Positions 27,588 through 61,180 of a DNA stretch of 64,000 bases are shown in pieces. Position 1 is the first letter of the stretch. Each line of letters starts with the position of its first letter. A program made the translations under genes and the position numbers. The notes beneath the pieces were generated by a model, which did no database searches, had not been told where the DNA came from, and saw only the letters and a program-made list of their open reading frames with translations. The DNA is from Corbicula japonica (lineage: Eukaryota > Mollusca > Bivalvia > Venerida > Cyrenidae), in contig JAZAYU010000005.1 of the NCBI GenBank assembly GCA_038501625.1, positions 2,666,001 through 2,730,000 of the forward strand. The letters are read 5' to 3'.

Positions 27588-28738
27588 CAAGAGGGCCATG
27601 ATGGCCCTGAATCGCTCACCTGAGTATGCTTTTCATGAAGCAACACTGCCTTGCTATGAAATGTTGGCACAATATGAGTTTCATCCTCGATCACAGACAC
27701 CTGTGTAGCAATCCCAAGCTGTTTTTGATATAAGCTACCCATACAACAAGTTTGGAGTCAATAGGCCAAAGCAAACTCAAGTTATTAAGTGAAAATTGAA
27801 TTTCTATTTTTAGCTACAGTGGTCGTGACCTTGACCACAGACATCTAGGTAGCAATCCCAAGCTGCCCGTTGATGTAAAATACCCATATACCAAGTTGGA
27901 GTAAATAGGCCAAAACAAACTCAAGTTATTAAGCAGAAACTGAATTTCTATTTTGATCAATAGTGACCTTGACCTTGATCACAGACACCTGGGTAGTAAT
28001 CCAAAGCTGCTTCTTAGTATAAGCTACCTATACACCAAGTTTGGAGTCAATATGCCAAAGCAAACTTAGGTTATTGAGTGGAAACTGAATTTCTATTTTT
28101 AGCAACAGTGACCTTGACCTTGATCACAGACATCTGGGTAGCAAACCCAAGCTGCCTTTTGATATAAGCTTACCATATACCTTGTTTGGAGTCAATTGGC
28201 CAAAGCAAACTCAAGTTATTTAGCGGAAACTGAATTTCTATTTTTAGCAACAGTGACCTTGACCTTGATCACAGACACCTCAGTAGCAATCCCAAGCTGC
28301 TTCTTGAAATTAGCTACCCATACACCAATTTTGGAGTCAACAGGCCAAAGCAAACTCAAGTTATTGAGTGGAAATGGAATTTCTATTTTTAGCAACAGTG
28401 ACCTTGACCTTGATCACAAACATCTGGGTAGCAATCCCAAGCTACCTCTTCATATAAGCTACCCCACAGACCAAGTTTGGAGTCAATAGGCCAAAGCAAA
28501 CTCAAGTTATTGAGCAGAAACTAAATTTCTATTTTAGCAACAGTGACCTTGACCTCCACCCTATGGTCATGATTTGAACAACTTTTGCAGACATTAGTGC
28601 CAGGATGCTCCAGGACAAATTTGGTTAAAATCCGTCCAGTGGTTTCAGAGGAGATGTTGTTTAAAGGAAATTGTTGACGGACGACGGACAAAGACCGGTC
28701 ACAATAGCTCACCATGAGCCTAAAGCTCAGGTGAGCTA
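27588..28738. mobile_element. Dispersed bivalve element with six tandem 145-bp units
   Basis: The element opens CAAGAGGGCCATGATGGCCC then GCTCACCTGAG, and closes with CTCAGGTGAGC, an 11-bp inverted terminus. The body has six copies (spacing 128, then 144-146 bp) of a unit with GTGACCTTGACCTTGATCAC, CCAAGTTTGGAGTCAATAGG and GCAAACTCAAGTTATT. No coding frame was found. Related fragments are visible at 48601-48630 and 49795-49870. I recognise it as a common bivalve repeat but cannot give its class. Confidence 0.75.
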
Positions 28739-34399: not shown

Positions 34400-35020
34400 C
34401 GATTCAACTCACAGGCCTATAGTACTGTCACGACTTAATCCCAGGTTTATACAACTGTCACGACAAATTCAAAGGACACATTCACAGGCCCATTGTACTG
34501 TCACGACAAAATCACAGGTTTATACAACTGTTACGACAAATTCAAAGGCCTATAGTACTGTCACGACAAAATTACAGGTTTATACAACTGTCACGACAAA
34601 TTCAAAGGTTTATAGTACTGTCACGACGAAATCACAGGTCTATACAACTGTCACGACAAATTCAAAGGCCTATAGTACTGTCACGACAAAATCACAGGTC
34701 TATACAACTGTCACGAAAAATTGACAGGTCTATAGTACTGTCACGACATTGTCCTATAGCACTGTTACGAGAAACCCACAGGTCTATACAGCTGTCACGA
34801 AAAACGCAAAGGAATATAGTACTGTCACGACAAACTATAAGGTCTATAGTACTGTCACGACAAATTCATAGGCCTAAAGTACTGTATCGACAAACTCAAA
34901 TTCATAGGTCTATAGTACTGTTGCGGAAAAACGCACAGGTCTATAGTACTGTCACGAAAAAAGGCACAGGTCTATACAACTGTCACGAAAAACGCACAGG
35001 TCCATAGTTCTGTCACGACA
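34400..35020. repeat. Alternating 30-bp/60-bp minisatellite
   Basis: Two related units of about 30 bp alternate: CAGGTCTATACAACTGTCAC followed by GACAAATT, and AAAGGCCTATAGTACTGTCA followed by CGACAAAATCA. All share CTGTCACGA. There are roughly 20 units, less regular toward the right. The open frame across it is an artefact. Confidence 0.9.
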
Positions 35021-36840: not shown

Positions 36841-36910
36841 AATTCACACAACAGTGAAATAACAGTGCACAGGATTTAAGGTGTCACAATTTTTTTAAAT
36901 TGATACATGA

Positions 36911-37278
36911 AATTTTGCTACTGCTACTGCTGTGCTTCTGCTACTGCCCACTTCACGTTTTATAATTTTGCTACTGCTACTGCTGTGCTACTGCTACTGC
37001 CAAATTGATGTTTTATAATTTTGCTACTGCTACTGCTGTGCTACTGCTACTGCCTATTCATGTTTTATAATTTTGCTACTACTACTGCTGTGCTACAGCT
37101 ACTGCCCACTTGCCGTTTTATAATTTTGCTACTGCTACTGCTGTTCTACTGCTACTGCCAAATTGATGTTTTGTAATTTTGCTACTGCTATTGCTGTGCT
37201 ACTGCTACTGCCCACTTCACGTTTTATAATTTTGCTACTACTACTGCTGTGCTACTACTACTGCCAATTTCATGTAAA
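36911..37278. repeat. 53-bp tandem repeat rich in CTACTG
   Basis: AATTTTGCTACTGCTACTGC then TGTGCTACTGCTACTGCC and a CACTTCACGTTTTAT-type spacer is repeated seven times at 52-54 bp spacing. The period is not a multiple of three, so it is not coding. Confidence 0.9.
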
Positions 37279-40011
37279 TAAAATCATAAAATTCATAAAG
37301 AACAGACATGTTGCTTTAAACCCACAATTAACCGTTTAAAACAGAATAATTTTGGTTATTGTTCAATAAACCCAAGGATATAGCTCCTGGCGTTTATTTT
37401 TTGTCTTTTCACTGCGTATTTTCTTTGCTCCGACAAAAGACAGGTTCGCGGACTTACGGACTTACTGAACTGTAGCTAAAACCCTTTAAACATGCTTTTC
37501 TAGCTGTGCGGTTCTTTTTCTTTTCAGTATAGTTGTAACAACACAAACATCAGGAGTGGCGCGATGGAGATTTAACATGATTTCGGTTATTTAATACATT
37601 TACAACAGTGTGCATAAGCCTGTGAGCTGCCATACTGTAAGTACAATTTTGTTTATTATTTCTTAGTTATTGTAGACCATGCTATGCATCGGTATAAATA
37701 TAAAATGTGTCACACTTATACATGTATACTGATGAAAAAAGTTTAGCGATTAAATCAATTTCGAAATGCTGTACGGGAGATTATTTTATTTGGCACGCAA
37801 AACCGTACTATTTTGAATTCAAACCAAATAGCTCTACATGACAAACTTTCTAAAAAAAAATAAAATAAAGACAAATATCAAAAAGCTGCTCTAACTTTTA
37901 TGACATACGACACCAAAATATTGTTCTTTTTTAATGAAAATGGGAGCTAACTTGGAAATAAGCAAAGAAATAAAACACGAATAATGTTCACGATTGATTC
38001 TAGTCTAATATGATATAATTTATTTTAAAAAAATATACGTTTTCTTATTCGTAAATATTAGTTAATTAAAATAACTGCTAAACTTATCTTTCAATATAGT
38101 GTTTAGAGGGTTCCTCAGAAAGTATTTAAGAAGTATATGCTTTCAAAAATATACGCATTGGTTAAGTACTGTTTAGAAATTGGTGTCTTGGCCGTTGAAA
38201 AATATTGTTACTAGATATTTATATATGTAGGAAAATTTTTTAATGCAAAATGTTTCAGTTTTTGCCAAAGAGATTTTGTAACGTCCCTTTTGTTATTTTG
38301 GCAGAACGTGGAAAGTTTTTAATATTTACATACCTGACCAACTAGGTCAGTCATCTATTGACTTCTAGATAAATTAGATACATTCTTCCAGGAAAATAGG
38401 TGTTTCAATGCGTGCATTATTTCCTGACAGAGTTCCATTAAAATCAAAAGCGCACGGAACGTCTATTACATACGTACATTGCTGAAAGTTACATGTAAAC
38501 AACTGTTGAGCCTGAAACTGGAATAAATATTTACATATGACAGGAATCTCCGAGTTGGGAGACCCCTATTTCAAGAAACCACTTAGATATCTAAAATGGA
38601 AAACTTTGCGGGTGCTTTGGACTTACTGAAAAAGGTGATTCTCCATTTCCATCAAATGTCTATATGTAACATACAATGTAGATGTATGCTCTACTTTTTC
38701 TTCCTCAGTATAGTGAACTTATCTTTGTACACGACGGTTGTACATGTATTTGGGTCACAATAAGGTCAACGCATACAGTTTATTGTTATCACATCACTGT
38801 TGCCTGAGCCGCATCAATACAGCAATGTAGATGTATGCTCTACTTTTTCTTCCTCTGTATAGTGAACTTATCTTTGTACACGACGGTTGTACATGTATTT
38901 GGGTCACAATAAGGTCAACGCATACAGTTTATTGTTATCACATCACTGTTGGTTTAAACAGTATTTATTTCAAATAGTACATATAAATCCAAGTATAACA
39001 GAGCAAGACAATACATATATATTTGAGAGGATGAGAAAACAAGCTATCAGATGATAGCTTATACAGTTGTTCAGGCAGTAACGGATAGCTAAGCAGATTT
39101 ACGCTGCACAGGTCTTTAAAAGTAGAAATTTCAACAACAAATCGATACTTTCCGACAGAGAAAAGTGTACACACTTCAAAACAGGTCATTTTTAAACATT
39201 CTGCGAGATCTGTCACGCACTAATCTTTGTTTATATTACCTCATCGAATCAGCCAGTAGCGGATAGCTTCGGGTAGTATGGGATAGGTAAATTAAGCTCA
39301 CTGGGGGACGTCTCAAACCAGCTCAAACATTGTGCATTGTGTATTGTTGGTATTGTTGATGAACAAGTATTGAAACACATTCAAAGGTTTATCAAATAAA
39401 AAAAATACACTCTGATCTAAATTAAACCCAGAACCGTTTGTTAACAGCAACAGAAGAAAATCCTAACACAATATGTCATTCAATTCTTTATTAAGAAAAA
39501 TTATTGGCATTTTCAAATCAAACAAATCACAGAGAAATTAAATGGAATTAACAGTATAATCACATCAAACAGTATAAACATTAAGTTAATTTGTTTTCAT
39601 ATAAAAGTTGCATATATACTGATCGTAATAAAAATAACTGAACATGGTGGCCAATAACAAAACAACATATAACAACACATATGCAAAAACTGAGATATCT
39701 TTGAATTTAGGTTATAAAAAATGTTAACCTGAGAAATAGTAATGAGTACATGTAATAAAGATCTACTGACTAGATCATGTAAAATAAAAAAGTATAATTT
39801 TAACTGGAACTATGTGTAGATATAGATTCTTGTAACTTGTAAGACTTAATGCTAAATGTAATGGAAACTACTCTGACTAGATCATGTACTTTGTCTTTGA
39901 ACACATAACCTGACCATTCACATATTATAATAATTACTGGTTCTTTATGTGCTTTACACTTCCTTCTGGCATAAAGAATAGTGTCTAAGAAAACATCCTA
40001 ACAGTTTTTTT
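37279..40011. other. Large FHOD intron, no recognisable gene
   Basis: Contains the 129-bp duplication. It also holds CAGTTGTTCAGGCAGTAACGG near 39065-39085, which recurs inverted near 41205-41227, so these may be ends of one decayed element. Confidence 0.45.
38674..38951. repeat. Duplicated 129-bp segment
   Basis: CAATGTAGATGTATGCTCTA to CATCACTGTTG occurs at 38674-38802 and again at 38823-38951 with one visible difference (CCTCAGTAT against CCTCTGTAT). A 20-bp spacer separates them. Near-identity suggests a recent duplication. Confidence 0.9.
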
Positions 40012-41959: not shown

Positions 41960-42085
41960 CTGCCAAATACACAGTGTCTAAGCGTACAGTTAACCGAAAC
42001 GGAAGTTGCTGATCTGTACGCCGATGATCACATAGTTGCTTACAGAAAAACCTTCGACATCGAATTATTTATTGGTAAATACACC
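41960..42085. repeat. Inverted repeat A, left copy
   Basis: CTAAGCGTACAGTTAACCGA, CGGAAGTTGCTGATCTGTAC and GCCGATGATCACATAGTTGC are present here. The same run occurs reverse-complemented at 58135-58235 in the same order, identical over roughly 85 bases. The right copy lies just upstream of the cGAS/Mab-21-like gene, so this copy may be a displaced piece of that gene's 5' region. Confidence 0.85.
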
Positions 42086-42439
42086 AAATTTAATGTGCAT
42101 TTGGAAAGAATATTTCTGTGGTAAGTGCAACGTTAATTGTTAGTACTGCTGTGATCATATAGACTTAAAGAAAGGATTAGTATTGTTATAATCCATCATC
42201 GTTCCCAACTCGATCAGTGAAAATAGGAGCAAACATTGAACAAAACGGTACGTTTTGGGTTCAAATTTCTTTGTGTAAATAGATTTTGGACCATGTTTGT
42301 GTTGGTATGGGAGAAAATTCATTTATTCAACTTGTGTACTTCGTTGACCTGATTTTAGCGACTTAGCAACAAGATAATGATACTTTCTTTATGTCATTGT
42401 AAATGGTAAGACTATACGCATAGTTGCAACTGTACGCGA

Positions 42440-42685
42440 TCATTAGCTGTTAACTACGGAAGCTTGTATGGGGCACCCTGTGGTTGTGTTTTTGTCTACT
42501 TTGTCAACATGCAGTTTGGCGACATGTCGATTTATAATTCAGGATGTCGTCAAGACTTAAGATGACTTGCTAACATATAACAAGTTATGTCGCTGACCAA
42601 TATGTTGAATTGTCGTTTTAGTATAACACCATTGTGTCATAATTTAAGGCGACAACAACACAATATGGAAATGGCGACTTAACTT
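42440..42685. repeat. Inverted repeat B, left copy
   Basis: The segment from CTGTTAACTACGGAAGCTTG to GTCGCCATTTCCATATTG (on the complementary strand) matches 55838-56095 in inverted orientation over about 250 bp with few differences. It is rich in GTCG/CGAC motifs (for example GGCGACATGTCGATTTATAA). It may be a miniature transposon. Confidence 0.85.
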
Positions 42686-42980
42686 TAACCGACAAGACGA
42701 AATGTTTGACTTCAATGAACATGTATGTCGACATGAATAAAATCGACAAATGGTGACAAAGGCAAGAAGTCGCCATACCGCATTGTAACAAACCATACAA
42801 ATGACATCTTGCCGCCTGAAGATAGGACAACTTATCGTTATGAGATAAAACGGCAGTCGTTTGATAAGGAAGAATGAGGCTGGTACGTATAAACTCAATT
42901 ATTTTATCTTTTTCAATTGGACTCCATGTTCTAATATTTAATGCTTATAATTGCATGGTCAATGTAAAATGTAATCCAGT

Positions 42981-43110
42981 ATATTGCTTAATGCAATATC
43001 CTTATTTTACATTTTTTACAACATATATTGCTTATTGCAATATCATTATTTTACTTTTTTACTACATATATTGCTTATTGCAATATCCTTATTTTACTTT
43101 TTGCTTCTAT
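42981..43110. repeat. Three tandem units of about 43-44 bp
   Basis: ATATTGCTTATTGCAATATC followed by an ATTATTTTAC-type spacer is repeated three times. TTGC(TTAT)TGCAA is palindromic in each unit. It precedes the integrase-core pseudogene. Confidence 0.8.
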
Positions 43111-43155
43111 ATTTCATGTATATTTCAGATATGGTTATGTCTGACGCTTCTTTCA

Positions 43156-44145
43156 GTCGAGCCAATAACGGCAATTCTTTCAACTGAAGAAAGAGACACT
43201 TTGATAACTAATTACTACAGAAAAGGCTATACTTGGAAAGAGATATGTGGCTTTTTGCTGTTCTCGCATCATACTGTAGTCAGTCTTCATCAATTGAAAC
43301 GGATCCTTAAACGGTTAGGTCTCCGAAGGCGAAATGTACCCTTGTCGTTACCAGATATATTACGTGCTTTGTCCGAAGTTTATCAGAGGGGTTTTGGTGA
43401 TTGTGGATATAGAACTGTGTGGAAACTTATGAAAATGATAACTAATGTACATGTTACACAAAGTATTGTTAGACGTTTTATTAAGAATTTGCGATAACGA
43501 AGGTGTGAATTTGAGAGCTCGACACCGTTTACGTCGCAGAACGTACATTAATAGCGGACCAAATTTCGTTGTTCATCTAGACGGATATGACAAATTGAAA
43601 CCATTCGGTATAGCCATACATGGGGCGATTGATGGGTACTCTAAAAAAATACTCTGGCTAGAGGCGTGTTATTCCAACAATAACCCGCGTATTATTGCTG
43701 GATATTATCTGAAATTTGTTAAACGGACGAGGCGCGTACCTAAAGTTATTCGAGGAGATGCAGGAACTGAAAACGTTTTAGTTCGAGATATTCAGATAGC
43801 TTTGAGATATGAACATGCTGATAATAAGTCTGCATTGAATAGTTACTTAACGGGAACATATCCTAACAATCAAAGAATTGAACAGTTTTGGAGCAGATTG
43901 CGCGTTTGTTTTACCGTGTTTTGGAGAAACCATTTCAAAGACATGTCAGACAACAGGAAGTTAAACATCGACAATATGATACATTTGGAAGATCTTAGAT
44001 TCTGCTTTATGTCAATCCTACAAAGGGATCTTGACAACTTTACCCAACTTTGGAATTTACACAATATTAGACGTCAACGGCACTCTGAAGTGCCAAATGG
44101 CATTCCGAATGTCCTGTATCACCAGCCAGAAGTGTTAAATACATA
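43156..44145 (+). pseudogene. Integrase-core (DDE, rve-like) gene, 5' portion, frameshifted
   Basis: The first frame (from about 43156, after a TTCTTTCAG acceptor-like site, to 43497) encodes an HTH-like N-terminus (TEERDTLITNYYRKGYTWKE, LKRILKRLGLRRRNV, RRFIKNL). It then passes with a one-base shift near 43485 into the frame that carries the catalytic core. That core has a first acid in VVHLDGYDKLKPFG, a second in VIRGDAGTEN and a Glu in NNQRIEQFWSRLR. This is the family of metazoan integrase-core proteins common in bivalves, fish and corals, of uncertain mobility. The frame ends prematurely where a pogo-like element is inserted after ...EVLNT. The shift could instead mark a short intron, but no good splice pair is visible. 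Confidence 0.7.
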
Positions 44146-45060
44146 CAGTCCACACTCGTTGTGTCAAACTCGCTTAAGTCGAAACATCGGTTATCTCGAA
44201 TTAATTTTACGGTCCCGTCAAAATGTGTTCTTATTGCATATAATTTTACGCCGCTTAACTCGAATTCGACTTAAACAATGTTTTCATAAGTCGAACTAAA
44301 TTTAGAACCCGTCGGCTAAAATATGCTATATAAATTCATCGGATAAGTCGAAGTGTGAAACTTGCCGCGGTCGAACAATGCGCGCGGGTTCTTCAAAGAG
44401 AGAATTTGTCGGCAAACAAGATACCATTAATTAATAATAATTAACTTTTATCACCTGTAAGGTAAAATATTCGCTTATTTAATGCAATTTAATGCATTCG
44501 GATTTTAAATATTCGGATTCGTAAATGCAATTAATTTCAGTTTAAAAAATCAACAACATTTAATTACAGTAATCATGACATTGTGACATCCAGGCCAATA
44601 AAATATGAGTTCATCCGTTTAAGAGAACAATGCAAAAACATGATCCAAACGTAATAAATTCTCACTCAACAAGACTGAAGCACAAACAGCTCTAAATTAA
44701 CGGTTATGGGGTGAATATTAATTTGAATTAGTTTACGTAATAAATAAATAACGAGAGACGACTTTAACACTCAGAGTGAAGACGACGGCGATTTCACACA
44801 AACACCGAAACTTAACGATGATGTTTTTTAACATGTAATAAATATAATCAAGTTAATATATTTATTTCTGTTCTGTTTTGATATACTTATTGATTAACTG
44901 AAATGTTCATAAACGACTACTAGCACTCACAATCGTGGCAGCATTAGAAACATATAGGTATGATATTCGTGTATTCGCGCCAATTCGGATGTGTCGAACT
45001 TCGGATATCTCGAATTAAAATGTACGGTCCCGACGACTTCGACACAACGAGTGTGAACTG
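44146..45060. mobile_element. Pogo/Tc1-like non-autonomous element, 915 bp, TA target duplication
   Basis: The left end is CAGTCCACACTCGTTGTGTC. The reverse complement of the right end is CAGTTCACACTCGTTGTGTC. TA lies on both sides (44144-44145 and 45061-45062). Subterminal regions share GGTTATCTCGAATTAA-type and ACGGTCCCG motifs in inverted orientation. No transposase frame is present inside. It disrupts the integrase-core gene. Confidence 0.85.
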
Positions 45061-48825: not shown

Positions 48826-49011
48826 TTAAGAATTTACTGAGCAAGCCCGTAGCACATCTTTCCTGCACATTGGACAAGACTTTCTGTTTTCAGCAAAATA
48901 TGTGCCACATACAGTACAGAAAGGGTGACCACATGGAAAAAGCACACAGTCTTTAGGCCTGTCATAATAAATTCCACAGGTGGATTCATTCTCTGGAAGC
49001 CGAAAGGAAAC
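48826..49011 (-). CDS. RING-finger protein, last coding exon (one zinc ligand missing)
   Basis: This minus-strand exon begins after a TAATTTTAG acceptor and runs 62 codons in phase 0 to TAA. It encodes a C-terminal RING: CGIYYDRPKDC, then FPCGHPFCTVCGTY, then SCPMCRKD. This is the arrangement of the C-terminal RINGs of many bivalve E3 ubiquitin ligases. The second cysteine of the first CxxC pair is Tyr (CGIY), a TGT-to-TAT type change, so zinc site 1 lacks a ligand. All other C3HC4 ligands are present. The exon at 54684-54758 ends in the same phase and is the likely upstream neighbour, with the Naiad element lying in the intron. It may be a decaying gene. Confidence 0.6.
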   Translation of the reverse strand, partial: VSFRLPENESTCGIYYDRPKDCVLFPCGHPFCTVCGTYFAENRKSCPMCRKDVLRACSVNS

Positions 49012-50171
49012 CTAAAATTATATAACAGTTGGCAACATTGTTTTAACAATTAAATTTATTAAGAAAATAACGTTCATTTCTCCTTTAACACTTATTTACA
49101 CTCCATAAGCAAACTGTTGACACTTAGTCTGCTGACGAAACACTAACATAATATTGCTAAACTGTTGACAATAAAGCTTCAAACATACGACAAGAGCACA
49201 TACAATGGCTTCTTGTACAAGTACGCAAGCAACTATCTGTTGTTAAGCTTGATAATTTTGTTAGATCTGATGCAAACTAGAATAATCTCTGAAAAGGATT
49301 AATACTCCCACATTGGTGCTTAATACAGGAACATGAAAGATTAGAATGAATGGTCTGAAGTGACACTTAAAAAGGAAATATGTATATATATTTTAAATAT
49401 TATATTCTAACACGACACGGCGTTTTTTCCATTGACTCCGCAGTGATAAAATATGTGATAAATAACCGCGCGTGCACGTATCGACGTCAATGCTATTCCA
49501 TCATAACAAACTCGTAGTTGCGTTTCTGTCATAGAATTGTCGCGATTCAATTATATACATTGTTTTCAAGATAAAAATAATGCAAGATTTTGTAAGCATT
49601 TATAAAACAGATATTTAAATCCAGTATTTTTTAACTCCCATAAATATAGTTACAATAGGTAGTAAAATCAAACAGCCGACCTCATAACGCAATAATGGTG
49701 TAAAACTATAGTTTGGTGAAGTCACCTAAGTTACATCTGTTAACCAATTATAAAAAACAATATTTGACTCCTTTCAGGACTTATCTTCCGGAAACAATGT
49801 TTCTATTTTTAGTAACAGTGACCTTGACACTGACCCCACCAGCCCCAAAACTGAACTTGACCTGTAGCTTAAGACGTTACACCGGTGTACCAAACATTAT
49901 TTAAATCTGTCGTGCCTTTCATGTGTTATCATCTGGAAATGAAGAATCCGACCGACCCACCGAAAAGCTCACTCATATATACCTCCTCAAACTTCGTTTG
50001 TAGGGGTAAAACTACAAATCATACTTTTTACAAAAAGGTGAAATATGCATATCAGGAATCGCCACATTCAGAAAAAACAGCCTCCCCACACAGTCAAGAA
50101 GAAGAGAGGGGGAGAGAGCATGGTTAATAAAATAATCAGTTTCAAAAAAGACACCACCAACAATAAACAAA

Positions 50172-50290
50172 AATGAGAACCCGAGGGGTTACCGCCTTGG
50201 AACGGTCAGTGGCAAATCAAATTGCCACTGGGGGTTTAAACCAGGTTCTAGGGTGCACCAACCTCACACTTGCCCCAACAGGTTCTCATA
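50172..50290 (-). other. Structured 3' segment of the Naiad element (terminal and internal hairpins)
   Basis: ATGAGAACC at one end pairs with GGTTCTCAT at the other. Internally, CAGTGGCAA and TTGCCACTG form a perfect 9-bp stem. The segment lies in the 3' region of the Naiad copy. It may be a conserved element end or part of an RNA signal. I could not fit the canonical SECIS core (ATGA / AA / GA) to it by eye. Confidence 0.5.
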
Positions 50291-52020
50291 TCACAAAACA
50301 AGTACAAGTTGTCTTGGTGAAAAGACTCCAACCGACTTATCTGCTTAACAATGTTGCATGCAAAAGCACACAAACATATAAAACATAAGAAGCTAAGAGC
50401 ATTGCAAAGCCGAAAGGGGTACTCAATGATCTTACCAAGACCAGAGCTCCTGGAGTAAAATCAGCAAGAACACGATGACAGGGATAAAAGAAACAAATCG
50501 AGTTTCTAGGTTCTTTTAAGAAAAGATTTCCCCAATAACCTTCATAAACTCTTAAAACCCTGCCACCGTCGTGCAACCAAAGAGGTAAGCATAATGATCA
50601 ACTGTAGAAGGGTTAATCACCAGGCCTGCAGAGCGCTGTAAAATATCATGTTGGTAACCTTTCTTTTTAAATTTACAGATGGTTTTTACGAATAACCGGG
50701 AGAAATTAACACTGCCTTTAATCTTTTTAAGTTTATAAATTAAATCTCCATAAAAAACTGGTTGTGAAATACCTTGTTGCAAAAGTGATTTTAAACTGCA
50801 TTTGTATTTATGAATTAAATCTGGGTATCGGCGATAAAACTTGCAAAAGGTTTTCCTTAATTTGGGATACCGATAACCTTGTTTTAAGAGTTTTTCTGTA
50901 ATGCAAAGATTACGTTCATTGAAATCATTAACATTGTTGCAAGCTCTTGAAAAGCGAACAAGCTGTGAGATATAAACCCCATAAGATGTTGCACGGGGAA
51001 CATCGCCGTCTAAAAACGGAAAATTTACTATATTAAAATTAAAATCATCTCTTTTATCATAAATTTTAGTAGTGACATAACCATTTTCAATGGACAGATT
51101 TAATCGAGAAAGTTTGCTTGCTTTTCTGAAGTGTTCGCTTTGTTAAGTTGTAGTTCTTTGGGATAAATCTTATTAACTAGTAATGGAAAATGGTTATTGT
51201 CTATATTTAATAAATCATCAAGGTACCTCGAGGTGTTGTTAAAAGCTGTAATTATATCATCTTGATGTTCAGTAGAAAGAGATAACATAAAGTCTCTTTC
51301 ATAACAGTATAAAAACAGATCAGCAACAAGGGGTGCACAATTAGTACCCATTGGGATGCCTATTACTTGTTTATAAATAGAGGTACCGAATCTAACATAA
51401 ATATTATCCAGTAAGAATGTTAGCGACTCTATAAGGTCTTGACAAGTCCATAATGTATAATTATCATAAGAACCATCTGTAAAAAATGCCCTAAGTTCAT
51501 TACAAGCGATGAAGGTTTTATTTTCTCTAGCAAACGTTTTTTCAATGAGACTGGTTAGTTTGTCTCTTATTAAATTATGAGGGAGCGAAGTGTATAATGT
51601 TGAGAAATCATAAGTAGACAAACAGAACGCCCGAAAATTATTTGATTTAAGCTTTTTCAAAACGTCATTTGAATTTTTAATCGACCAAAATAAATTTTTG
51701 CCAGAAGTTTCAAAAACCTTATCACAATACCTAATTACGTGTTCTTTTATAGCTGTAAGACAAGATGTTAAGAGCACGGATAATTTAGTAGTAGTGCAAG
51801 AACTAGAGTTAGCAATAAATCTTGCTTTATACGGTGTTTTATGCATTTTAGGTAACCAATACATAGTAGGTACTTTGTCTTGTTTCGGCTCAAAACTGAT
51901 TCTAAATTTTGTAATTTGTAGAGTGTGTGCAGTAACAATATCACTCTCAGATGAAGAAGTCAATATATAAGCATTAGTGCTGTTCAGTTCTTCAGTTTGA
52001 ATATTAATATAGTGTATTCG

Positions 52021-52023
52021 TCA
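52021..52023 (-). other. In-frame UGA (putative selenocysteine) before the RT core
   Basis: TGA follows ADKASNNVIIV and precedes RIHYINIQTEEL. The frame stays open on both sides, and relatives commonly have Cys or a basic residue at this strand end. Confidence 0.5.
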
Positions 52024-52434
52024 CACTATAATTACATTATTAGAAGCCTTATCAGCAGGTGTTAAAACAAATCTGTTATGAAAGTCTTGAATTCCCTTTT
52101 TCAAATGACGAAAGTTAAAACGAGGTCGAGGTGGTAATAAAGCAATGTTTCTTTCATAAAATGATATACGGGTGTCAATTATTTTGAATATGTGCTTTTT
52201 CCAGTTAGAAAGTGCATTAGGCTCGGCATGTTCTCTTTTGCACCATTTATTGCAAAATAAGTTCAAAGACTCAGCAATTTCTGCACGGCATGCATTAAAG
52301 TCAATTTTGGATGATATTCTATATTTGGGACCTTTAGAAATTAAATTACGAATTCTAGAGTCTTTGATTAAATTAAGATCACCGGTAACAATATGACCGG
52401 CAGGCTAATAGCAATATTTAGAAGTTAAACACTC

Positions 52435-52437
52435 TCA
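52435..52437 (-). other. In-frame UGA (putative selenocysteine) in the CxC linker motif
   Basis: The frame reads Ser-UGA-Glu-Cys-Leu-Thr-Ser-Lys-Tyr-Cys-Tyr, so the first Cys of the clade-defining CxC motif is encoded as UGA. Confidence 0.65.
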
Positions 52438-53301
52438 AGATTTTGGTGTATTTTCAATGATCTGTAAATCCGATGTAATTTTATTGTAATTAAAAATTAT
52501 ATTTCTAGTTGGTTTGTTGTATTTATAACAAACCATAGGCGATTCAGTATTCTTAAAATAAATAGGAACAGCCGATTGAACTTTTTTATCTTTAAATATA
52601 CTAGGAAGGTCAATAAAATCTATTCCTTTATTTAAAAAAGAAATTTTAAGGAAATGTCTTTGATGGTCCGATTCCAAGTCAATATGCGGCCTGAGAACAT
52701 GCCGAGTATAACACTGAATAAGACTAGCAACCTCGTAAAATGGATGGGTTCTAATGACGATGTCGTCGGCTTCCTCATCCAGTTTCTGCAGACTTGATAT
52801 AGAAAGAGAAGCCAACCTAGATAGCATAGCGTGTCTGCCAGATTGTTTTAAAATAATATGTAGGTCATGAATAGAACAACGAATACGTGATTTTCTTTTT
52901 ATGTTTCCATTAGTTCTGCTTCCGTGCGACCTCGATTTTCTTTTACGTATTTCAAGTAATTCAAAGACGTCATAATCAGGATTTTTAGAAATGTTGCCTT
53001 CTTGATAAATATTATCATTTAAACCAAGTGGGTAAGGAGTTTGTAATTTTTTAATCCATTTCTGCTCCGAAACGAGCCTGGCCCTGATTTTAAATGCTCT
53101 TGAAGCAGTGCTGTCAAATGTAAGTTTTTCTACTGGTTGAACGGAAATATTTTGTAAACGGTGTCCTGAATGCTTAAAGTGTTGGTATAAAAATGTTTTA
53201 AATTTGCTGTTGTTTCGAATTTTAGAACAATGTTGTCCAAAACGTGTTTTTAAAGGGCGACCTGTTTGTCCCACATATTGAATACCACAGTTATTAGAAT
53301 T

Positions 53302-53304
53302 TCA
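53302..53304 (-). other. In-frame UGA (putative selenocysteine), first ligand of the CCHH zinc site
   Basis: TGA follows YVLT and precedes NSNNCGIQYVGQT. The family has Cys here as the first residue of the CCHH motif of the endonuclease. Confidence 0.65.
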
Positions 53305-53334
53305 AGTTAAAACGTAAACAATATTATCAGTTCG

Positions 53335-53337
53335 TCA
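53335..53337 (-). other. In-frame UGA (putative selenocysteine), start of GIY-YIG domain
   Basis: TGA follows NSDID and precedes RTDNIVYVLT. In Penelope-like endonucleases this position, just before the (N)VVYL strand, is usually Cys. Confidence 0.6.
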
Positions 53338-54074
53338 GTCTATATCACTATTAATGTTAACTGAGAAAGTTCTGCCGTTAACTGTGGATTTAATGATAGA
53401 ATTACAATTCAAATAATCACAGCATCTGCACCTCTTATAATTGCACTTGAAAATAGAAGGATAAGGTCTGCGTCTTCCGTCATTCAATTTATTTGTTGTA
53501 GAAATATCATACTTTCGAAGAATAGGCGATTTTAAAGGTGAAAGAGTAATTTTTAAATTGTTTTTAAATAAATTAGTACAATGAACCCTCTGCAGACCTG
53601 TCATATTGATAGAGCTTGCCGAAGATAAATTAATACGTGATAAACGAACCGAAGGCTGCAGACTTTTAAAAGATTTAATTTTATGCGGTGTTTGGACAGA
53701 AGACGCAGAAGATAGCCTTATTGGAGAAAGATTGATTTTCAATATTTTATTTTGTGCTGCCATAATGAAATATGTAGAAAGAATACCATTATATGATCAG
53801 CGACTTTAGGTTGCATTGAATTTCTCAAGTGACGTCACAACGTAATACGTGTATAGACAGTAAAGCGGTGTTTTGACTAAATGTAATATTGAAAAATTGT
53901 TTACTATTGCACCATTATTAAGGACTCTTACTGTTGGTGTATCTGCTTGTCTGAAGGATGTCAAGTTTTCTGGTGTCTGGAAGTTCTGAAATAGACATGT
54001 CCAAAAGTCCATATTTGAGTTTTAAGTTTCTCTGCTAGATTTTCTGATGGTTTTCCCGCATGACCTACTACAGA

Positions 54075-55557: not shown

Positions 55558-55837
55558 CTACAACCGCTGTGTTCTGATAATCTCTCCAGTTCAGGTCATT
55601 GACCCCAATGGATCACCTAAGGCTAAGATGAAGAAGACACTGCTGACAAATATTTGAAATTAAATTCACTCACTTTCTTCTCTGGGACCGCCACTTTCTC
55701 TGCCCGTGACGAAAAGTGGAGTTAAGAAAGGCGCGATCCGTTTTGTCAACATAACCAATATGTCAATATGTCGCGAGATTTTACCGCGCGAAGCGTACAA
55801 AATCAGACTACGTCGACATGTGATTTGTTGACATGCG

Positions 55838-56095
55838 GTTATGGTTAAGTCGCCCTTTCAATATTGTGTTGTTGTCGCCTTAAATTATGACACAATGGTG
55901 TTATACTAAAACGACAATTCAACATATTGGTTAGCGCCATTACTTGTTATATGTTAGCAAGTCATCTTAAGTCTTGGCGACATCCTGAATTATAAATCGA
56001 CATGTCGCCAAACTGCATGTTGACAAAGTAGACAAAAACACAACAACAGAGTGCCCCATACAAGCTTCCGTAGTTAACAGATGCCTAACATATGT
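55838..56095. repeat. Inverted repeat B, right copy
   Basis: Contains CGACATGTCGCCAAACTGCA and CCCCATACAAGCTTCCGTAG, the reverse complement of the left copy. Order and orientation relative to repeat A are nested (A-B ... B'-A'). Confidence 0.85.
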
Positions 56096-56920: not shown

Positions 56921-58134
56921 TTATGCGACATTTTGGTCGTTATGATGCAGTCGTAAAGAAGTCGTTCATATGTCGTAAAACGCACGTGGACAAGTAAGTC
57001 GTTAAAATAAACATATATTCTTAATTTCTACAAAAATCTCCGAGATTCTCGATGATTTTAATCGATTAATTCGTCAATAATTTCGTATTTTGAACAAGTT
57101 TTTTTCTGAAACGAATCGGAAAAACCGTAACTACGACAAGCGTAGACTCTTGCACAGTCAGTAAGTACTTAGTAAGTAAGGTAGACACGCGCTGTGAAAC
57201 AGTCAACGAAAAGCTTATAACGATCGCAGTTGTCGTAAAAGTTTCCCGGAAAACAGATTGTTGACAATCGTCGCTTTTTCCGTATTTTCGGAGGGGAAAA
57301 TCACATTTTTGGGGGAATTTTTCGTCTCGGGAAGGGGAAAGAATTTACCTATTTTGCTTGGGGATGACGCCGTATATCGGCGTCTGTTATATAAGGAAAA
57401 AAAACCCTAATACAGCTGGACAAATACGCGTGAAATTCTTAGCAGTTCCAGACGTAATTGTATACTAACTTAACTCCGTCATGAAGTGGTGGATTTCAAA
57501 ATCTGAAACCACTTAATGGAATTTTCCTGTCAAAGACCAGATTGTTAAAGTCTTTATGATATTGGATAATATTTGTGCATAATGTATATTTTTGCCAACA
57601 CCGGCAGGGATTTCAGCAGGTTTATACTAGGTTTTATTTAATGTCACAATCGGGGGATTTAGGATTTCTAGCAATTATCGGTGTCTTATTTGCAAAGTGT
57701 ACCAATTCGTTCATATGGTTCAACAGTAGATCAGAGTAAAAAAAACCTATCAATTTATAGCTCAAAACGTGCTTGTCAGTTCTAAAATGTGATCATATAA
57801 GGTTTTATTTTTGATAAATAATACATTAGATAGGTTGATTCCTTTGATTGATTCCTTTAATAAGTTCATGCTTCATTGATGCTTTTCAGTTGATCAGTAT
57901 ATGATGCACTTATGATCGCAACTGTTCGTACAGTCTGACATTGAAGTACTCAGATTTTCTCCACTCTTTTTCCCCATTTTGTACTGATCAAGTGTGAAAA
58001 GATTACAGATTGCAACTTAACTAGCCGTTAGTTCAAGACTTCAAGATCACAGAAAGGCTATTAATCAACGATGTACTTATTATAAAAATAATTTCTGCAA
58101 AAAGCATGTTTAATTTGAATATATTTTACAAATA
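56921..58134. other. Non-coding stretch before the nucleotidyltransferase gene
   Basis: Nothing recognisable; no long open frame or repeat beyond scattered simple runs. Confidence 0.45.
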
Positions 58135-58235
58135 AAAAGCCGATGTCGCGTGTTTTTCTGTAAGCAACTATGTGATCATCGGCGTACAGATCAGCAACTT
58201 CCGTTTCGGTTAACTGTACGCTTAGAAACTGTGAA
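58135..58235. repeat. Inverted repeat A, right copy (upstream of the nucleotidyltransferase gene)
   Basis: Reverse complement of the segment at 41960-42085. It lies about 330-430 bp before the 58567 exon start and may be part of a 5' exon or promoter. A 75-codon open frame (LETVNKLAQLLPERFRKL) starts within it, but I cannot assign it. Confidence 0.85.
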
Positions 58236-58572
58236 TAAGCTAGCGCAACTGCTTCCAGAAAGGTTTCGCAAGTTGATATCAGTTATCCTCGTTTTCTATG
58301 AAGACATTCTTAACAGCATACGACTGCTTATAGTACATGTAAATACAGCAGTATGTATAAAAGTGATAAACTTGTAAAATGCACATGTGCATTTGTTTTT
58401 TGTAAAATTGCACATTGCATTGATATTGAAACCTGTAGAACTCGGTTTAGTTTCGCATACAAAAACTGACTGGTGATATACTTTTAGTATCATTTGAATC
58501 ACACAAAACACGATTTTGTTTCTTTATTATGTTGTGATTAAGAACAAAATATTGTTTTCTTTTCAGACTAGA

Positions 58573-59626: not shown

Positions 59627-60589
59627 GTACACATTAAGACTCTATGCAAGCTGATTTAACTACTGGTCGCCAGTGCATCTGGGAACCATTTAGCAGGTAG
59701 AGGGCTCCAGATTGGAAGTTTTATGATTTTTATTGTGGTACATTCTTTATATTTTGCACATACTTTATCTGCTTAACACCCACATGGTATTATGAATAGA
59801 GTACTTCTTCCGGAAACGATCCGTGGTTTACAATGGTGCTTTAAGTAGCTTTTTGAGCGCTTCATATTGTTAACCGTTCTTTTTGTACGCTTACTGTATG
59901 TCCTGTTATTATTCCATTATGAGTTTTCTTTAATTGTGTATTCCTTTCACATTAGAAGTGCTAGTTATACAACGTTGTTTCTTAGTAAACGTCAACAGGC
60001 TTGATATGGATCATCTAGTGACCTTGTCCTAACTACATACATTCTGGTAGTTCTATGTTCAACCGTTAAAATGGTCACCAAATACCAGATTCGATTTCAA
60101 GGTCACCGTGACAACGACCTTTGACCTTTTTACTCCAAAAACCGAAAGAGGTCATTAACTGTATTAATGCTATTTTTCGACTTTAATAACTTAAAGCCTC
60201 AACAAAGGAAAGTAATATTTTCAAATTCGTTAGCAAAATATATCGTGGAAGCTACTTACTAAACGCTACTAAGTCAAAGAGATAATGGTGGAAATTGTAC
60301 GAGCGATTCTTTGAAAAACTGCTGTATAATTTTTCTTTTTTTTTCTTTTGTGTTGGGGGTGGGGGGGGGACGTAAGCTGTCTAGGCTGGCTTTCGATTCA
60401 AATTATCGACCAATAAAATGTTATTATCTTATCGCCACTTATCAACAATCCAATGGGAAAATCAACTTAACTATTGCGATTGGTGTTTATTTTTAAAAGA
60501 GCGGCATCCAGTGGGTAATCTATAACATCGAGATAAACTTATGGCCCTAATTTTAGGTTCACCTATGAGGATTGATACATCACTTTTCT

Positions 60590-61180
60590 GATAAATTACT
60601 ACCGACTCGGTTACATTCGCTACCGATTCTGATACATTACTACCGATTCTGATACATCACTACCCATTCTGATACATCACTACTGATTCTGATTCATCAC
60701 TACCGATTCTGATACATCACTACCCATTCTGATACATCACTACCGATTCTGATACATCACTACTGATTCTGATTCATCACTACCGATTCTGATACATCAC
60801 TACCGATTCTGATACATCACTACCGATTCTGATACATCACTACCGATTCTGATACATCACTACCGATTCTGATTCGTCACTACCGATTCTGATACATCAC
60901 TACCCATTCTGATACATCACTACCCATTCTGATTCATCACTACCGATTCTGATACATCACTACCGATTCTGATACATCACTACCGATTCTGATACATCAC
61001 TACCCATTCTGATTCATCACTACCGATTCTGATACATCACTACCGATTCTGATACATCACTACCGATTCTGATACATTCACTACCCATTTTGACACATTG
61101 ACTACCGATTTTGAAACATCACTACCGATTCCGATACATTCACTTCTGATTCTGATACATTTATTACCGATTTTGATACA
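60590..61180. repeat. 20-bp minisatellite, about 28 units
   Basis: TACCGATTCTGATACATCAC is repeated at exactly 20-bp spacing. Variant units (CCCATT, TGATTCATC) recur as blocks, for example the pair at 60721-60780 repeating 60661-60720. The last units degenerate near 61170. No spacers differ as in a CRISPR array; the whole unit repeats. Confidence 0.95.

Follow-up and report, generated by a model that had tools for sequence, protein, structure and literature searches.

An abundant Penelope-like retrotransposon of Corbicula japonica, here in a disabled copy, with four predicted selenocysteine codons

The element copy and its reading frame

The analyzed window, a stretch of 64,000 nucleotides of the Corbicula japonica genome (contig JAZAYU010000005.1, positions 2,666,001 to 2,730,000), contains on its minus strand a copy of a Penelope-like retrotransposon, likely of the Naiad type, whose single reading frame is interrupted by four TGA codons. 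In an original prediction, made from the sequence of the window, these codons had been read as selenocysteine (Sec). The features of the copy, in window coordinates, are as follows (RT, reverse transcriptase):

50032..53867, minus strand: body of the Penelope-like (Naiad-type) element, delimited by DNA match to other copies and by a common 3' terminus
50552..53763, minus strand: single reading frame, with ATG at 53763 and TAA at 50554-50552
53335..53337, minus strand: TGA, residue 143, predicted Sec, ahead of the strand formed by model residues 148-154; TGA in 33 of 33 covering loci
53302..53304, minus strand: TGA, residue 154, predicted Sec, first Cys of the endonuclease Cys pair; TGA in 33 of 33 loci
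52435..52437, minus strand: TGA, residue 443, predicted Sec in U443-E-C445, where the CxC linker has its first Cys; TGA in 34 of 34 loci
52405..52407, minus strand: TAG, residue 453, disabling stop, found at this column in the window copy only, among 30 copies
52021..52023, minus strand: TGA, residue 581, predicted Sec, where a strand ends ahead of the RT core; TGA in 34 of 34 loci
51100..51142, minus strand: overlap of two frames, from frame reading a disabling frameshift of the window copy

The frame encodes, in order, an N-terminal domain, a GIY-YIG endonuclease, a CxC linker and a telomerase-like RT. The four in-frame TGAs, the single TAG and the frameshift near 51.1 kb were recovered as originally described, the codon positions given at that time being the low ends of the codons; the interval then assigned to the element corresponds to the frame, the whole element being wider (about 50032-53867). 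Over this span, DNA identity with most of 29 other copies in the genome was 97-99.6%, copies L014, L030, L038 and L039 matching a shorter or split span. The copies share a 3' terminus (...ATATGCATATTTCACC(T)n), beyond which their flanks differ. Relative to a 4,190-bp tandem unit the window copy is 5'-truncated, about 350 bp of the 5' sequence of tandem copies being missing, and its open frame amounts to 898 amino acids vs. 1,064-1,084 in most of the 51 genome matches described below. With a TAG and a frameshift, the window copy is dead.

Both the architecture and the arrangement of the copies point to the Naiad clade. The endonuclease lies N-terminal to a telomerase-like RT in one frame, with a CxC motif between them (columns 443 and 445 in a consensus of 21 rows), all of which are Naiad traits, and the endonuclease consensus showed Cys columns 154 and 159 together with His columns, which are candidate metal ligands according to the CCHH motif. 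Copies form head-to-tail arrays with a period of 4,189-4,190 bp, in keeping with the pseudo-long terminal repeat (pLTR) or tandem organization of Naiads; 3' partial copies were found upstream of many copies, ending at the 3' terminus, and the flanks past this terminus mostly differ, or else continue as the 5' portion of a following unit. No Rfam family, hammerhead ribozyme included, reached its gathering cut-off in the window, where the copy lacks the 5' part of the unit, and none of 120 listed homologues (of 264) carried a transposon family name. Naiad membership is likely, on the grounds of architecture and homology.

The Naiad clade of Penelope-like elements was reportedly described by Craig and colleagues in 2021, and Naiads with several Sec are said to occur in clams and spiders. 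These reportedly combine likewise an N-terminal GIY-YIG domain, a CxC linker, a telomerase-like RT, tandem copies and several in-frame UGAs; no difference from them is claimed, and the species and subfamily may be new. The window family is of this known kind and adds a member to the class. Papers on Sec Naiads were absent among the literature matches listed, and in PMC10941475 the name Naiad is a table entry. According to PMC11167929, canonical endonuclease-bearing (EN+) Penelope and Poseidon elements also join GIY-YIG and a telomerase-like RT in one frame and occur as tandem or partial-tandem copies (pLTR), and the arrays and upstream 3' partial copies of the window family match the description of Penelope-like elements given there; the canonical elements, however, carry a hammerhead ribozyme and have their endonuclease on the C-terminal side, whereas that of the window element is N-terminal.

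TGA codons in genomic copies and homologues

A protein search of the genome (1,069,688,145 bases) returned 19,216 first-look candidates, out of which 51 matches, window copy included, were scored. All were 97-99% identical, with at least four TGA each, and 42 of them had exactly four TGA and no further stop; from this closeness the family appears to be young. Thirty-three other copies were fetched from the same genome, and the locus counts take in the window copy as well. TGA occupied all four columns in 30 of 30 fetched copies (window copy among them), and a second search added four loci, 88-93% identical, giving the totals of 33 and 34 listed above. Private TGA mutations, which had been named in the original prediction as evidence against Sec, were not found in these loci, every covering copy having TGA at all four sites. 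Across the genome, a 26-nt pattern for site 581 matched 1,230 TGA codons (616 + 614; reversed control, 0) vs. 16 non-TGA codons, namely 10 TGG and 6 TGC/TGT (4 and 2, respectively); this count, of TGA vs. TGC, TGT and TGG, refers to site 581, sites 143, 154 and 443 having been counted in the fetched copies.

The majority-stop columns in the 30 copies were exactly residues 143, 154, 443 and 581, in agreement with the earlier argument that these TGAs are not arbitrary decay. The remaining stops (TAA, TAG and TGA) were scattered, column 248 alone being hit twice, by different stops. Variant codons comprised 157 nonsynonymous, 113 synonymous and 14 to stop (expected ratio, 2.91), amino-acid changes thus being rarer than expected.

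Consensus alignment placed the four columns where they had been claimed to lie, that is, before a strand, at the first Cys of a pair (residue 154, which we take to be the first zinc ligand of the endonuclease by the CCHH motif), in the CxC and before the RT core. Three protein searches listed 120 of 264, 120 of 424 and 27 of 27 homologues, 267 in total, and column states were taken from the best alignment per homologue, only where the column was covered or the open reading frame (ORF) ended right before it. Among the 44 listed homologues below 45% identity, Cys was found at 443 and at 581 in 43/43 cases each, at 143 in 26/28 (2 W) and at 154 in 27/28 (1 W). In the 223 listed homologues with at least 45% identity, column 443 showed 70 ORF ends, 7 W and 41 C; column 581, 36 ends, 12 W, 25 C and 3 others; column 143, 20 ends, 1 W, 2 C and 1 G; and column 154, 3 ends, 1 W and 1 C. 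Predicted ORFs of the 120 listed homologues of segment 155-442 ended at 442 in 70 entries, at 580 in 36 and elsewhere in 14, and those of the 27 N-terminal homologues at 142 in 20, at 153 in 3 and elsewhere in 4; the relatives with ORFs stopping at the same columns were about 45-70% identical. Gene callers cut such proteins at UGAs, which is a warning for annotation and the reason why most near relatives appear truncated in the searched protein database.

Where P0001, P0002 and P0006 align, Trp stood outside conserved Trp columns only at 443 and 581, where it would represent TGA translated with a Trp code. W at column 143, in one case also at 154, was observed in P0057 and P0259 (<45% identity), which may be additional Sec proteins from beyond the main clade. 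The database label of P0200, a 64% identical homologue, gives a symbiont of the clam Lucinoma myriamae as its source. A scan of genome_contigs gave four loci, after one scan without a match: L001 (28% identity) had Cys at all four columns, L002 (a metagenome-assembled genome of a Bathymodiolus symbiont) had Cys at 581, the sole column covered, and L003 and L004 covered none of the four. No match was obtained in viral_contigs scans for families of other species, in phage and plasmid searches with P0002, or in a PDB sequence search with the RT segment only.

In a quick tree of 107 RT rows with a midpoint root, Sec rows were nested inside Cys rows, and 21 rows, 20 of them Cys and one with another state, grouped together inside the Sec clade (support 85, not starred). 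The Cys label needs 4 changes on this tree, with starred branches forcing 4, the Sec state of 28 of the 106 labelled rows being deduced from ORF starts only. Because the Cys group sits inside the Sec clade and four label changes are needed, Cys and Sec have apparently replaced each other at site 581 on more than one occasion.

SECIS-like structure and tRNA-Sec

At the end of the frame, a candidate selenocysteine insertion sequence (SECIS) was located:

50472..50569, minus strand: predicted form-II SECIS (Rfam SECIS_1, 20.2 bits, gathering score 35; folding; descriptor)
50569-50556/50485-50472, minus strand: predicted SECIS helix I, beginning in the last codons of the frame
50545-50542 (AUGA), 50529-50527 (AAA) and 50499-50498 (GA), minus strand: predicted SECIS core

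The AUGA of this hairpin lies 6 nt past the stop codon, and the predicted SECIS possibly straddles the latter. Of all Rfam families, SECIS_1 matched best in the 548-nt region spanning the 3' end; the match was full-length, on the sense strand, and had E 0.3 over 4,227 families, or about 7e-5, by arithmetic, for SECIS_1 alone. In copy L016 the minimum-energy fold was a form-II SECIS (-36.2 kcal/mol; z -4.3 vs. 300 shuffles), with a 14-bp helix I starting in the last codons, 5 more pairs and an internal loop with AUGA and GA, followed by a 9-bp helix II with one mismatch, the AAA bulge and a 6-bp helix III. Our own simple SECIS descriptor ranked the site fourth of 43 hits on both window strands, and a match as good was found in 17 of 2,000 shuffled 3' regions. 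The SECIS comparison covered copies of the Corbicula genome; here the expectation of a shared SECIS was borne out in part, a SECIS-like structure being present in other copies at scores below the Rfam cut-off.

In some relatives the frame runs a few codons further, and tails such as SDSMMVPT align without gaps, by eye, to the read-on EFMKVIGE of the window copy. Judged from the protein letters of these relatives, ATG plus a codon starting with A would give the AUGA, and a TAA stop would fall 12 nt further, at the AAA of the window copy. In SELENOP, several UGA-Sec codons are served by a 3' SECIS; as opposed to such multi-Sec proteins, the protein here is the endonuclease/RT of a mobile element, whose last codons form part of the predicted SECIS helix I.

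Matches to tRNA-Sec above the cut-off were found at four places in the genome, with an equal score of 78.8 bits, and in the single one fetched ARAGORN read the anticodon tca. The observations at L047 and G000:C6:5709836-5733948 comprise these equal-scoring genes and a tandem series of matches to the tRNA-Sec model, in 2,403-bp steps and just under the cut-off (46.9 bits).

Interpretation and neighbouring features

The best explanation, with a probability of roughly 93%, is that the abundant Penelope-like retrotransposon, likely a Naiad, of which the window holds a disabled copy codes for one protein with four predicted Sec at columns that are Cys in distant relatives. As in selenoproteins, the in-frame UGAs stand at conserved Cys columns and are kept between copies and between families. 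The selenoprotein-type Naiad reading of the original prediction is supported and was right in kind; its placement of Sec at zinc-ligand and CxC positions stands as well, as a trait of the whole family and not as a peculiarity of this copy. The predicted form-II SECIS where the frame ends would recruit the host Sec machinery (SBP2, eEFSec), all four UGAs would be decoded as Sec, the N-terminal GIY-YIG domain would nick DNA and the telomerase-like RT would copy the element RNA by target-primed reverse transcription. One Sec would take the place of the endonuclease's first zinc ligand, and another would form a Sec-x-Cys pair in the linker; if the UGAs were not decoded, the protein would stop at residue 142.

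Several points weigh against this explanation. Sec incorporation is a prediction from DNA, and the copies are closely related, so that their agreement does not amount to 34 independent observations and TGA conservation indicates a family trait rather than many independent events. The SECIS_1 scores in the three copies tested (20.2 bits in the window copy, 19.4 and 18.3 in two diverged copies) fall under the gathering score, SECIS_1 was third by score (E 3) in a wider 5.5-kb Rfam search, and the minimum-energy fold of the window copy differs from the SECIS form, being 0.3 kcal/mol better. Covariation lent the SECIS no support (397 of 500 shuffles reached the observed value), the test being uninformative because the copies are too alike. 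The equation of W with TGA is an inference from database proteins, and several other entries have further W columns.

Three other explanations were considered. Ordinary decay of a dead copy, with which the TAG, the frameshift and the missing 5' sequence of the window copy would agree, was ruled out by the copy counts at the four sites and the genome-wide count at 581: TGA at each site in every covering fetched copy and 1,230 TGA vs. 16 at site 581 show that the four TGAs are not decay, and in relatives about 45-70% identical the ORFs break off at these very columns. It is very improbable that a near-cognate tRNA inserts Trp, Arg or Cys at the UGAs, or that a non-SECIS signal brings about the read-through; W does occur at these columns in some database entries and the SECIS score is under the Rfam cut-off, but relatives almost always have Cys as the alternative, the SECIS form is the minimum-energy fold of L016 at the stop, and the host has tRNA-Sec. 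Regulated termination at the UGAs, by which one RNA would give short N-terminal, endonuclease and RT products with rare Sec read-through, is very improbable. Stop columns shared by many families, gene-caller starts recurring at fixed residues after a UGA (583 in 26 entries, 161 in 38 of 120 listed), which would be compatible with separate starts, and the early termination known for SELENOP would accord with it, yet Cys replaces UGA in other families, apparently within the Sec clade too, and such a replacement removes the terminator and keeps the thiol.

The preferred reading adds a well-supported, very abundant four-Sec mobile element, and the size and youth of its family, the predicted stop-straddling SECIS and the flipping between Cys and Sec at one site may be new. 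Since Cys occupies these columns in other families, natural Cys/Sec pairs are at hand for asking why a retroelement would exchange a zinc-ligand and a linker Cys for Sec. A more tentative idea, which we consider rather doubtful, is that this element of more than 1,000 copies ties its mobility to host selenium, four Sec being needed and the SECIS stem lying partly in the last codons with its core straddling the stop, and that, with single sites flipping between Cys and Sec in sister families, Sec would make nicking or reverse transcription redox-tuned.

Other features were observed around the element. Nested inverted repeats (42447-42691 / 55836-56080, 245 nt, 96%; 41967-42093 / 58110-58236, 127 nt, 87%) enclose 13-16 kb, with the Naiad copy inside, and could either mark both termini of a large element or be two repeats in opposite orientation. 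Two overlapping ORFs at 42868-44299 on the plus strand, with a weak HTH_21 match (19.7 bits, under the cut-off) and an integrase core (rva_4, E 2.5e-30), are likely another mobile element. An open segment with a RING finger (zf-C3HC4_3, 44.4 bits) was found at 48829-49011 on the minus strand, about 1 kb past the 3' end of the element and on the same strand. Minisatellite arrays were present at 60537-61177, 34405-35020, 36858-37318 and 27607-28605, with units of about 20, 30, 53 and 145 bp, respectively.
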